From assembly GCA_014379405.1 (NCBI GenBank), contig JACMLU010000010.1, positions 186,001 to 250,000 on the forward strand: a stretch of 64,000 nt of DNA, read 5' to 3'. The first letter of the stretch is position 1. The number at the start of each line of letters is the position of its first letter. Positions 59,308 through 63,192 of this stretch are shown here, piece after piece. A program made the translations under genes and the position numbers. The notes beneath the pieces are model-generated. The model did not search any database. It worked only from the letters and a program-made list of their open reading frames with translations, and was not told where the DNA came from. The DNA is from Flavobacterium sp. GTDB taxonomy: Bacteria; Bacteroidota; Bacteroidia; Flavobacteriales; Flavobacteriaceae.

Positions 59308-60423
59308 ATGTTTAAAATAGGCTCTTTTTTAGCTTTGTTTTTTATTTTGAATTGTAAAGCACAAGTTAAACCAAATGACATCCCCATTCAAGATGAGGTT
59401 GTTAAATACACATTCGAACCGGTTGCTACAGGAATTATCATTCCATGGGGTATGGTTATCTTGCCAGACGGGACTTTATTGGTGACAGAAAAAAGTGGCA
59501 CTCTTTTTCATGTCAAGAATGACGTAAACACCGAAGTTAAAAATGTTCCTAAAGTCTATAAACGTGGACAAGGAGGATTGCTGGATATTGCATTGCATCC
59601 TAATTACGAAAAAAATGGATGGATTTATATGACTTTTTCCTCAGAAGGTGCTGAAGGGGAAGGTGGAAATACTAAACTAATTAGAGCAAAATTAGTTGAC
59701 GAAGGTTTGACCGAAATTCAAGAATTATACAAAGCGACACCAAATACTACTGGTCCCAATCATTTTGGTTCCCGAATAGCTTTTGATAATGAAGGATATT
59801 TGTATTTTAGTATTGGTGAGCGAGATAAGAAATTCGTAAATCCACAAGATATAACCCGTGATGGAGGAAAAGTATATCGATTGCATGACGATGGAAAGAT
59901 ACCGGCCGATAATCCATTTGTGGGGAAAGCGGGAGCAAAAGAAGCCATTTTTTCTTATGGACATCGCAATCCTCAAGGAATGATTAAAAATCCTATAACT
60001 GGCGAAATTTGGACTCACGAACACGGACCACAAGGTGGAGATGAAATTAATATTATCAAAAAGGGAGCTAATTATGGCTGGCCAGTAATCACTTATGGAA
60101 TAGATTATGATGGTAAAAGCATAAGTGATATAACTGAAAAAGAAGGGATGGAACAGCCTTTATATTATTGGCTTCCATCTATCGCTCCGGGTGGAATGGT
60201 TTTTGTCACAGGAGATCGTTATCCTGATTGGAAAGGTGGTTTGCTTGTTGGTGCCATGAAATTCAAATACTTGGAACTGCTTAAATTGAAAGACAATAAA
60301 GTAGTCAGCAGACAAAAAATTGCCACAGAAATTGGACGTGTAAGAAACGTATTTCAAGGTCGTGATGGGTATATTTATTTTGCTGTAGAACAAAAAGGAA
60401 TCTTTAAAATTATACCTAATTAA
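59308..60423 (+). CDS. PQQ-dependent sugar dehydrogenase (soluble aldose/sorbosone dehydrogenase, YliI-like)
   Basis: 371 aa; secreted; RGQGGLLDIALHPNY, IGERDKKFVNPQD, HRNPQGMIKNPITGEIWTHEHGPQGGDEINIIKKGANYGWP. Confidence 0.92.
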   Translation: MFKIGSFLALFFILNCKAQVKPNDIPIQDEVVKYTFEPVATGIIIPWGMVILPDGTLLVTEKSGTLFHVKNDVNTEVKNVPKVYKRGQGGLLDIALHPNYEKNGWIYMTFSSEGAEGEGGNTKLIRAKLVDEGLTEIQELYKATPNTTGPNHFGSRIAFDNEGYLYFSIGERDKKFVNPQDITRDGGKVYRLHDDGKIPADNPFVGKAGAKEAIFSYGHRNPQGMIKNPITGEIWTHEHGPQGGDEINIIKKGANYGWPVITYGIDYDGKSISDITEKEGMEQPLYYWLPSIAPGGMVFVTGDRYPDWKGGLLVGAMKFKYLELLKLKDNKVVSRQKIATEIGRVRNVFQGRDGYIYFAVEQKGIFKIIPN

Positions 60424-60426
60424 TCT

Positions 60427-60894
60427 ATGATATTCAATAAATTGTGTTTTTTGATGAGTCCATTTTTACTCGGTTTTGCTTATATTGGTTTATCGAGTTC
60501 AGTTTTTAAAGAAGAAGAAGCTGATAAATACTTAATTCCTGTTGTATCCCAAGATAAATCGAATTTGCAAAAAAGCATTAGCAGAGGCAAAGAGATTTAT
60601 ACTGATTTCTGTATACAATGCCATTTAGCAACCGGAAAAGGGGATTTAGTTAATTTCCCACCTCTTGATGGTTCGGATTGGCTAACCAAGAAGCGAAAAC
60701 AAAGTATACATTCCGTAAAGTTTGGACAAACGGGAGAAGTCATCGTTAAAGGCAAAAAGTTTAATAATGTAATGCCTCCATTGGGTCTTGAAAATCAAGA
60801 GGTGGCAGATGTGATGAATTACATTATGAATTCATGGTCTAACAAGCAAAAGAAAATGGTAACAGCGGAAGAAGTCAAAGCTGTTGTTAAATAA
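60427..60894 (+). CDS. Secreted c-type cytochrome
   Basis: 155 aa; CIQCH heme-binding motif, downstream Met (NVMPPLG) ligand. Confidence 0.9.
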   Translation: MIFNKLCFLMSPFLLGFAYIGLSSSVFKEEEADKYLIPVVSQDKSNLQKSISRGKEIYTDFCIQCHLATGKGDLVNFPPLDGSDWLTKKRKQSIHSVKFGQTGEVIVKGKKFNNVMPPLGLENQEVADVMNYIMNSWSNKQKKMVTAEEVKAVVK

Positions 60895-60955
60895 TAATTA
60901 GTAAATTATTTTTATAGAAGGAAATGTATTTCTTCTATTTAATAGTTAAAGCCAA

Positions 60956-61010
60956 CCGCAATATTAAGATTTTCAAAAGAAGTCTTTAATATTGCGGTTT
61001 TTATTTATTT
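60956..61010 (+). terminator. Terminator between cytochrome c and convergent TonB receptor
   Basis: CCGCAATATTAAgattttcaaaagaagtctTTAATATTGCGGTTTTTATTT. Confidence 0.8.
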
Positions 61011-63192
61011 AAAAAAGGTAGGTTAAAGTTATTCCGCCATAAATATTACTTGGATTTCCTGGATAGTAATAACGTGGAGGAGCAGAGCCAAAACCAACTG
61101 CATTAGGCAAAATACTTGATGAATATTTTTCGTTCAAGATGTTTTGCATTCCTGTATTTATTTCTGTTTTTAATTTTTTTAGTATGATAAAAGTGTACGT
61201 AACTTTTGCATCCAATAATTGGTAACTTTTTGTGTATTTTGAATTGGCATCATCCATTGGCATTTTACCAAAAAAGCCAAAGTTTGTGTTGAAGTTCAAA
61301 CCCAAATTAGTACTGAAATCAAAGCCTAAATTCCATTGAACATTGGATACTGCAGGAAGTTTATTTCCTGAAAAGTCAATGTCTTTATCGATAAAGTCGG
61401 TAAACTTAAAATTATTTATTGTACCAGAACAATAAGGTTGAATTTGGAAATTTAAATTTGGAATCCATTTATAATTCACTAAAAATTCTATGCCTCGATG
61501 CGAACTTTCACCAGCATTAATTCCCATATACTGGTCTTCGGCAATACGGCGAGCAACCAATAAGTTTTCTATAAGCATATTATAAAATGCTAGTTCTATG
61601 TAGAGTTTTGAGTCTATAAAATTTCCTTTGAAGCCTACCTCATAATTAATTCCTGTCTCAGGTTTTAAATCCGTGTTGATTTGTCCTTCGGGCGTTAATG
61701 TTTCAGCAACGGTAGGGGTTGAAAAACCTTTGCTAATTGAAGTGTATAGGTTTTTGCCATTTGATATTTTATAGGAAAGCCCTAAACGTGGTGACCAAAT
61801 CGATCCGAAGGTATAACTCTTTTTATCAGTTTTGTTTTCAACAAAAACATCACTTTGCTCATAATTCGTGGTGTTGTAAGCTAAGCCGGATTCTAAATAC
61901 AGTTTTTCTAGAAGTTGCATATTCATTAGCACAAAAATATTTGAGTTGTTCCTTTTTTGGTCAATTTCACTAAAACGATCTCCCTGAATACTTCCTTGAC
62001 CTGGTTGTGATTTATATAGATTTTTATAAAGTGAAAAATGATAATTTTCTGTTATGGTTTCTATTCCTAGGCTAAAAGTGGTAGGTATTTTAAACAGACT
62101 AGTTATATGGTTAATTTTGGATCGAAAGCTAAAAGCACCACTTTTATCTTCTAAAATATCAAAAGGACGAGCTTCATATCCATTTTTGAATGATGAGGAA
62201 ATACTCGTGTTTAACGACCATTTATTTGAAAAATGATGTTGATATCCCAACCCAATTAATAATTTGTCATAAGATTCATATCCTTGTGCAGCTTCCCAAG
62301 TCGCGGCAGCTTTTTCTGGAAAATTCTTGTAATCAATTTCACTTACAGAACTAGGGATATAGGCTTTTAGGTGGGTATTGATTACAAAAAGGGAAAGGAT
62401 GCCATTCTTGGAAAGATGTTGTTTCCCAAACAAGTTGAATGATTTCCGGTCATAGCTGCTATTTGATCGATAGCCTTCATTTTCTAAAGAGTTATAATTG
62501 GCGTAAATATTAGATTTTCCATCACTATATCCAGCAGTTATTGTCTGTTTTAATAGTTCAAAACTTCCTATGGTGGTTCCAGTTTTTGCAAAAGAATTTT
62601 CTTTAGGGGTTTTAGTTGCCAATAGATTGATTACACCACCAAGTCCAGCTCCAAAGCTAGTAGAATTCGGGCCTTTTATTATCTCAATACTTCCGATAGC
62701 TTCTAAATCGATGTCTTCTAACGATGTTTCACCTTCAGCACTAGTAAGCGGAATTTCTTCAAAGTAAGCCTTGATTCTAGTAGTGCTGTATTGTGATCTA
62801 GAACCAATGCCTCTAATAGTAATTTTGTTTGTATTCAGGGAGCCTTGTTGCATATATACACCCGGAATTTTGTTGAGAATTGGGGTTAGGATTACTCCAT
62901 CGGATTGTTTGATTTCTTTTTCTGTAATGATAGAAACTGATGCGGCCGAATTTTGAATTGTATTCTGGATGGGTAGACTTTTAATAATCAATTCGGAAAG
63001 TCCAATAGTATCTTTCTTTACCTGTCCATAAATGGGAAGATAATTTATAAGAATTAGAAGAATAGCGACAAAGACGGAATATTTTGTGTTCAATTTTTTT
63101 GATTTAAGATATTTGATTAGAAATTTCAATAAACTTAGTGTGTTTTTTTTGAATTTCAAAACCCAATAGTTGGATGCTAACATAGGCATCAA
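61009..63192 (-). CDS. TonB-dependent receptor, PqqU/YncD-like candidate
   Basis: Plug motif IRGIGSRSQYSTTRIKAYFEEIPLTSAEGETSLEDIDLEAIGSIEIIKGPNSTSFGAGLGGVINL; N-terminal start uncertain. Confidence 0.85.
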   Translation of the reverse strand: MMPMLASNYWVLKFKKNTLSLLKFLIKYLKSKKLNTKYSVFVAILLILINYLPIYGQVKKDTIGLSELIIKSLPIQNTIQNSAASVSIITEKEIKQSDGVILTPILNKIPGVYMQQGSLNTNKITIRGIGSRSQYSTTRIKAYFEEIPLTSAEGETSLEDIDLEAIGSIEIIKGPNSTSFGAGLGGVINLLATKTPKENSFAKTGTTIGSFELLKQTITAGYSDGKSNIYANYNSLENEGYRSNSSYDRKSFNLFGKQHLSKNGILSLFVINTHLKAYIPSSVSEIDYKNFPEKAAATWEAAQGYESYDKLLIGLGYQHHFSNKWSLNTSISSSFKNGYEARPFDILEDKSGAFSFRSKINHITSLFKIPTTFSLGIETITENYHFSLYKNLYKSQPGQGSIQGDRFSEIDQKRNNSNIFVLMNMQLLEKLYLESGLAYNTTNYEQSDVFVENKTDKKSYTFGSIWSPRLGLSYKISNGKNLYTSISKGFSTPTVAETLTPEGQINTDLKPETGINYEVGFKGNFIDSKLYIELAFYNMLIENLLVARRIAEDQYMGINAGESSHRGIEFLVNYKWIPNLNFQIQPYCSGTINNFKFTDFIDKDIDFSGNKLPAVSNVQWNLGFDFSTNLGLNFNTNFGFFGKMPMDDANSKYTKSYQLLDAKVTYTFIILKKLKTEINTGMQNILNEKYSSSILPNAVGFGSAPPRYYYPGNPSNIYGGITLTYLF

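Follow-up and report, generated by a model that had tools for sequence, protein, structure and literature searches.

A divergent PqqU-like receptor beside quinoprotein and cytochrome c genes points to a PQQ-scavenging module in Flavobacteriaceae

Introduction

What does a TonB-dependent receptor import when its gene stands convergent to genes for a sugar dehydrogenase and a c-type cytochrome? The question is raised by a three-gene locus of a Flavobacterium species, lying in the window, by which we mean the whole stretch of 64,000 nucleotides that was analysed. The original prediction for this locus held that the receptor scavenges PQQ, which then charges periplasmic quinoproteins, and that the receptor resembles YncD/PqqU of E. 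coli. PqqU carries a published signature of Y99 (or F/W), R304 and R365, and charge reversal at R304 or R365 in E. coli slowed PQQ-dependent growth (PMC12124388). Here, we compare the genes of the locus, their neighbourhoods and the predicted receptor pocket across Flavobacteriaceae and beyond.

Results

A sugar dehydrogenase paired with a cytochrome c

The first gene of the locus (Table 1) encodes a 371-residue product that scores 433.6 bits against PF07995, above the Pfam cut-off, and whose best PDB matches are a glucose dehydrogenase of P. aeruginosa (7cdy, 4e-79) and YliI of E. coli (2g8s, 3e-77). Both matches extend over the full length and include common active-site and PQQ motifs, with NHFG at residue 151, GHRNPQG at 218, EHGPQGGDE at 238 and RVRNV at 344 lying in the same regions of 7cdy and 2g8s; the protein thus has the active-site and PQQ/Ca motifs of a PQQ-dependent sugar dehydrogenase of the GSDH family. 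It does not belong to the s-GDH subfamily (TIGR03606), against which it scored 121 with a cut-off of 434.55. The product of the second gene matches Cytochrom_C (PF00034) at 7.7e-13 and has the features of a class I cytochrome c, a CxxCH motif (CIQCH at residue 62) and a distal methionine in a downstream NVMPP. Just 3 bp separate the GSDH stop from the ATG of the cytochrome, as the original prediction had described. Unlike YliI and the P. aeruginosa enzyme, the GSDH in the window has a cytochrome c gene of its own and a receptor gene beside it.

Table 1. Positions of the three genes and of selected receptor codons in the window.
Feature	Position	Strand	Evidence
Probably exported aldose sugar dehydrogenase, PQQ-dependent (Asd/YliI type of the GSDH family)	59308..60423	+	Pfam PF07995, PDB matches, motifs
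Monohaem cytochrome c, probably accepting electrons from GSDH	60427..60894	+	Pfam Cytochrom_C, CIQCH
PqqU-like TonB-dependent receptor, Flavobacteriaceae variant	61009..63192	-	Plug and barrel Pfam domains; PDB; AlphaFold
Tyr135 codon, equivalent of PqqU Tyr99 (stacks on PQQ)	62788..62790	-	Alignments
Pocket segment K336...E340-x-R342, equivalents of PqqU R304, Q308 and Q310	62167..62187	-	Profile alignment
Phe386 codon, position of PqqU Arg365	62035..62037	-	Alignments
Arg414 codon, family-specific	61951..61953	-	73/74 family members; absent from PqqU and sister group
Arg549 codon, family-invariant	61546..61548	-	74/74 family members

The host genome (3.86 Mb, 86% complete) holds three GSDH-family genes, namely the copy in the window, one of the sorbosone type and one whose product ends in a type IX secretion sorting tail (locus L047, genome G000, contig 27), which suggests export of that protein to the cell surface or the medium. 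Neither PqqD nor PqqC was found in this genome, and the search for PqqE returned a remote radical SAM relative (68 bits, cut-off 381); local PQQ biosynthesis was rejected on these grounds, and the host is an apparent PQQ auxotroph by gene content. The original prediction had seen no pqq biosynthesis genes in the window, where we also found none, and the genome-wide search extends that reading to the host. A search for PqqC (TIGR02111) in 79 Flavobacteriaceae genomes with the receptor was likewise negative, and the control, S. meliloti pSymB, was matched at 5e-129.

The receptor has the fold of PqqU and belongs to a separate family

The third gene encodes a protein with plug and barrel domains (Pfam), in which the three peptides quoted in the original prediction were all located as written. 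Its true start is probably an internal TTG (63093) that lies 33 codons into the listed frame, giving a protein of about 693 residues with a signal peptide, because relatives have about 692–697 residues and the profile alignment begins at residue 34. The top PDB matches were PqqU/YncD structures (6v81, 9c4o; about 1e-39), with other receptors at 2e-11 or worse. An AlphaFold model (pLDDT 73, pTM 0.75) found its best fold match in 9c4o, PqqU with PQQ (TM 0.90, rmsd 2.6 Å), followed by FecA (0.83, 3.8 Å), making this a plug-and-barrel TonB-dependent receptor whose fold is closest to PqqU. The NCBIfam PqqU model NF041535 gave 190.3 bits, far below its equivalog cut-off of 1200, yet this was the best score of all models, and models and structures of haem and siderophore receptors scored lower. 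The receptor and E. coli PqqU are reciprocal best matches at about 23% identity.

We detected the receptor family in 133 of 301 Flavobacteriaceae genomes and in 111 of the 237 genera sampled. With E. coli PqqU as the query against 121 Flavobacterium genomes, the best match was a member of this family wherever the family exists; genomes lacking it yielded nothing at 1e-15, except for two weak matches near 1e-17. Within the genus, 15 genomes have the clade closest to the receptor in the window, and 31 have a second clade whose identity is about 41%. A literature search, whose scope left out most subscription journals, did not find the family described.

In a phylogenetic tree, the flavobacterial family formed a separate clade (support 1.0), apart from the signature-bearing PqqU clade, with 13 receptors from other Bacteroidota as its sister (support 0.97). 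The six E. coli siderophore and B12 receptors included (BtuB, FhuA, FepA, FecA, CirA and Fiu) formed one clade of their own; copper receptors were outside the tree. Since the tree is in effect unrooted, it shows separateness and not branching order. Together with the PDB and model scores, it rules out a siderophore or B12 receptor, in agreement with the original prediction.

Signature-bearing PqqU sequences (L084–L107 and others, phylum-wide), which the same E. coli query finds, have R304 and R365 in 29 of 29 cases and almost always Phe at position 99, and none was among the Flavobacteriaceae sequences examined. One of them (L109/L150) has a GSDH gene directly upstream, a likeness to the flavobacterial family. 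A further PqqU-related clade (L108, L111, L146 and L153) has Lys at 304 and Arg or Lys at 308, and lacks Arg365.

Receptor genes travel with quinoprotein genes

The arrangement of GSDH, cytochrome and convergent receptor genes recurs in 14 other Flavobacterium loci and is therefore not a product of chance. In the close Flavobacterium clade, GSDH and cytochrome genes face the receptor gene in 15 of 19 loci; in the second clade, 6 of 7 loci have a gene for a different quinoprotein, sorbosone-dehydrogenase-like (GSDH/DUF7133), immediately upstream of the receptor gene and in the same orientation; and in other genera, receptor, GSDH and cytochrome genes follow one another on one strand. The GSDH–cytochrome pair is kept in 15 Flavobacterium module loci as well as in these operons of other genera. 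The genes after the cytochrome in the other genera were considered as module parts and rejected, as they resemble housekeeping genes (uridine kinase-like, septum-formation-like).

At least 52 receptor genomes out of 133 hold a PQQ dehydrogenase gene beside that of the receptor, with two types of enzyme and three arrangements of the genes; the count is a lower bound, obtained by picking nearby coordinates by eye among the GSDH matches listed. In 36 of these genomes GSDH follows the receptor gene directly in the same orientation (mostly at 15–200 bp), in 15 the sorbosone type directly precedes it, again in the same orientation, and one case is convergent; by a rough estimate, chance would give fewer than one genome. 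Up to about 60% of the receptor genomes have no adjacent quinoprotein gene that we could see. Unlike pqqU at its locus in E. coli, the flavobacterial receptor gene often shares an operon with a quinoprotein gene.

Co-occurrence extends beyond adjacency. GSDH is present in 131 of the 133 receptor genomes vs 110 of the 168 receptor-free genomes of Flavobacteriaceae, and the two receptor genomes without it are 85–88% complete. The receptor is present in 28 of 29 genomes with the sorbosone-type quinoprotein, and in Flavobacterium the close GSDH clade is present in each of the 15 genomes that have the close receptor clade, and occurs alone in three others. Exact tests were run on these counts, but because the genomes share ancestry and the counts are not independent, the p-values are indicative only. 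GSDH without the receptor is common among Flavobacteriaceae, and diffusion may let PQQ in when its concentration is higher (PMC12124388).

Other genes also accompany GSDH. In many Flavobacterium loci (L051:11570-13456 and equivalents), a gene for a 342-residue lipoprotein-like protein without a Pfam match is followed by one for a polysaccharide deacetylase, and this pair stays beside GSDH even where the receptor gene has moved away. At two further loci (L064 and L065, in genomes G017 and G036), the GSDH gene is in the same place, with cytochrome and receptor genes both missing.

The predicted ligand pocket appears rebuilt

We compared pocket residues in 74 sequences of the flavobacterial family, 29 signature-bearing PqqU sequences (E. 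coli and matches of the phylum-wide search) and the 13 sister-group receptors. The aromatic residue at position 99 is retained, as Tyr or Phe, in 74 of 74 family members. Arg304 is replaced in the window by Lys336, a conservative change, and the family mostly has Lys, Arg or Leu at this position. Arg365, invariant in the signature-bearing sequences, occurs in 0 of 74 family members; misalignment was rejected as the cause, as sequence alignments and a profile–profile alignment all place Phe386 there and no conserved arginine lies nearby. The profile–profile columns further equate Q308 with E340, Q310 with R342, K274 with E306 and R536 with Q554. Glu replaces K274 in 69 of 74 family members and R536 is mostly Gln, whereas E340 (74/74) and R342 (72/74), which stand at two of the PQQ-contacting positions of E. 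coli PqqU, are absent from both PqqU and the sister group. W299 and N244 are near-invariant in the family and were likewise not found in the other two groups. The position of Arg549 is Gln, Glu or Ser in PqqU and Arg in 3 of 13 sister-group receptors. Placed in the pocket by alignment, Arg414 and Arg549 may face the ligand, and Glu306, Glu340 and Arg342 would touch PQQ.

With such a pocket, the receptor might import something other than PQQ, such as haem or a metal chelate, for the same respiratory chain, and this need would itself place its gene beside quinoprotein genes; the cytochrome or an oxidase could make use of haem or copper. Replacement of the essential PqqU arginines and the gain of two glutamates speak for this explanation, as does the sister group (L125–L133, L140–L142 and L145), whose pocket is uncharged at the PQQ-contact positions and whose ligand, given this pocket and a neighbourhood free of quinoprotein genes (0/13), is probably a different one, so that ligands change within the receptor superfamily. 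However, in operons of the sorbosone type the receptor gene stands with a quinoprotein gene and no cytochrome gene, leaving PQQ as the requirement that both quinoprotein types share; the stacking aromatic is retained, and PqqU outscores the haem and siderophore receptors. We therefore regard a different ligand as the strongest of the alternatives, and still an unlikely one.

It is far less probable that the protein is an ordinary PqqU binding PQQ exactly as in E. coli. The best-match relationship, the conserved equivalent of Tyr99 and the positive charge that Lys336 keeps at R304 would suit such a protein, but the changes at R365, R536 and K274 and the separation of the clade from all 29 signature-bearing sequences do not. 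The resemblance to PqqU put forward in the original prediction thus survives as the best sequence and fold match, and fails as canonical identity, the Y99/R304/R365 combination being incomplete.

No conserved link to a beta-glucan locus

Immediately upstream of the module, the window has GH3, GH5, GH2 and GH3 genes, and the original prediction accordingly placed the module at the end of a beta-glucan utilisation locus, with the dehydrogenase oxidising sugars released by the GH3/GH5 enzymes. Neither proposal was supported: in the closest relative (L003, Flavobacterium sp. A45; receptor 90% identical) the module has no glycosidase genes beside it, the next two genes being those found on the far side of the glycosidases in the window, and at the other Flavobacterium module loci the neighbours are unrelated, with no conserved linkage to glycosidases or SusCD. 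That the receptor imports glucan-derived sugars, or that the module mainly oxidises glucose from the glycosidases, is the least credible explanation of all, as the receptor is moreover of the PqqU type, with about 700 residues and no SusD partner; the substrate of the dehydrogenase need not derive from this locus.

Discussion

Our preferred reading, to which we assign a probability of roughly three in four, is a cofactor-scavenging module working like a PqqU-fed quinoprotein module. The TonB-dependent receptor would capture extracellular PQQ and pass it into the periplasm, where the exported GSDH-family enzyme would bind PQQ and calcium, oxidise aldose sugars and, once loaded, hand electrons to the adjacent cytochrome c. 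We infer PQQ to be the likeliest ligand from genome sequences, because GSDH accompanies the receptor in nearly all genomes and a PQQ dehydrogenase adjoins it in many, in several orders and with two enzyme types. The sister group serves as an internal control for this reading, having neither the charged pocket nor quinoprotein neighbours. Gene context, co-occurrence, fold and the apparent auxotrophy accordingly lend good support to the scavenging role given in the original prediction.

Under this PQQ-scavenging reading, the receptor would be a relative of PqqU specific to Flavobacteriaceae, its ligand pocket remodelled: stacking by Tyr135 is kept and Arg365 is lost, Glu306, Glu340 and Arg342 stand where E. 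coli PqqU has three of its PQQ contacts, and Arg414 and Arg549 may be further partners of the PQQ carboxylates. By the published definition it is not PqqU, but it probably works like PqqU as a divergent variant, with which it shares the fold, the plug tyrosine and a likely role beside quinoproteins in a host unable to make PQQ. Glu at position 274 may let PQQ bind together with a metal ion, according to modelling (PMC12124388), and the most fitting description of the receptors is a divergent family, spread across Flavobacteriaceae, that probably takes PQQ, or possibly PQQ with its metal.

More tentatively, and with somewhat less than even confidence, we propose a second class of PQQ importer in Flavobacteriaceae, in which Arg342, Arg414 and Arg549 take the place of the R304/R365/R536 triad and Glu306 and Glu340 are added, perhaps for taking up PQQ together with its metal ion; much of the family Flavobacteriaceae would then be PQQ scavengers uncounted by the published signature search. 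Such searches would miss the flavobacterial receptor because the pocket predicted for it is unlike that of E. coli PqqU. Bacteroidota without PqqU have been suggested to make PQQ or to rely on diffusion (PMC12124388), a picture that this receptor family, if confirmed, would change: a three-residue signature could then miss a functional class, and a large group would be added to the PQQ consumers of soils and waters.
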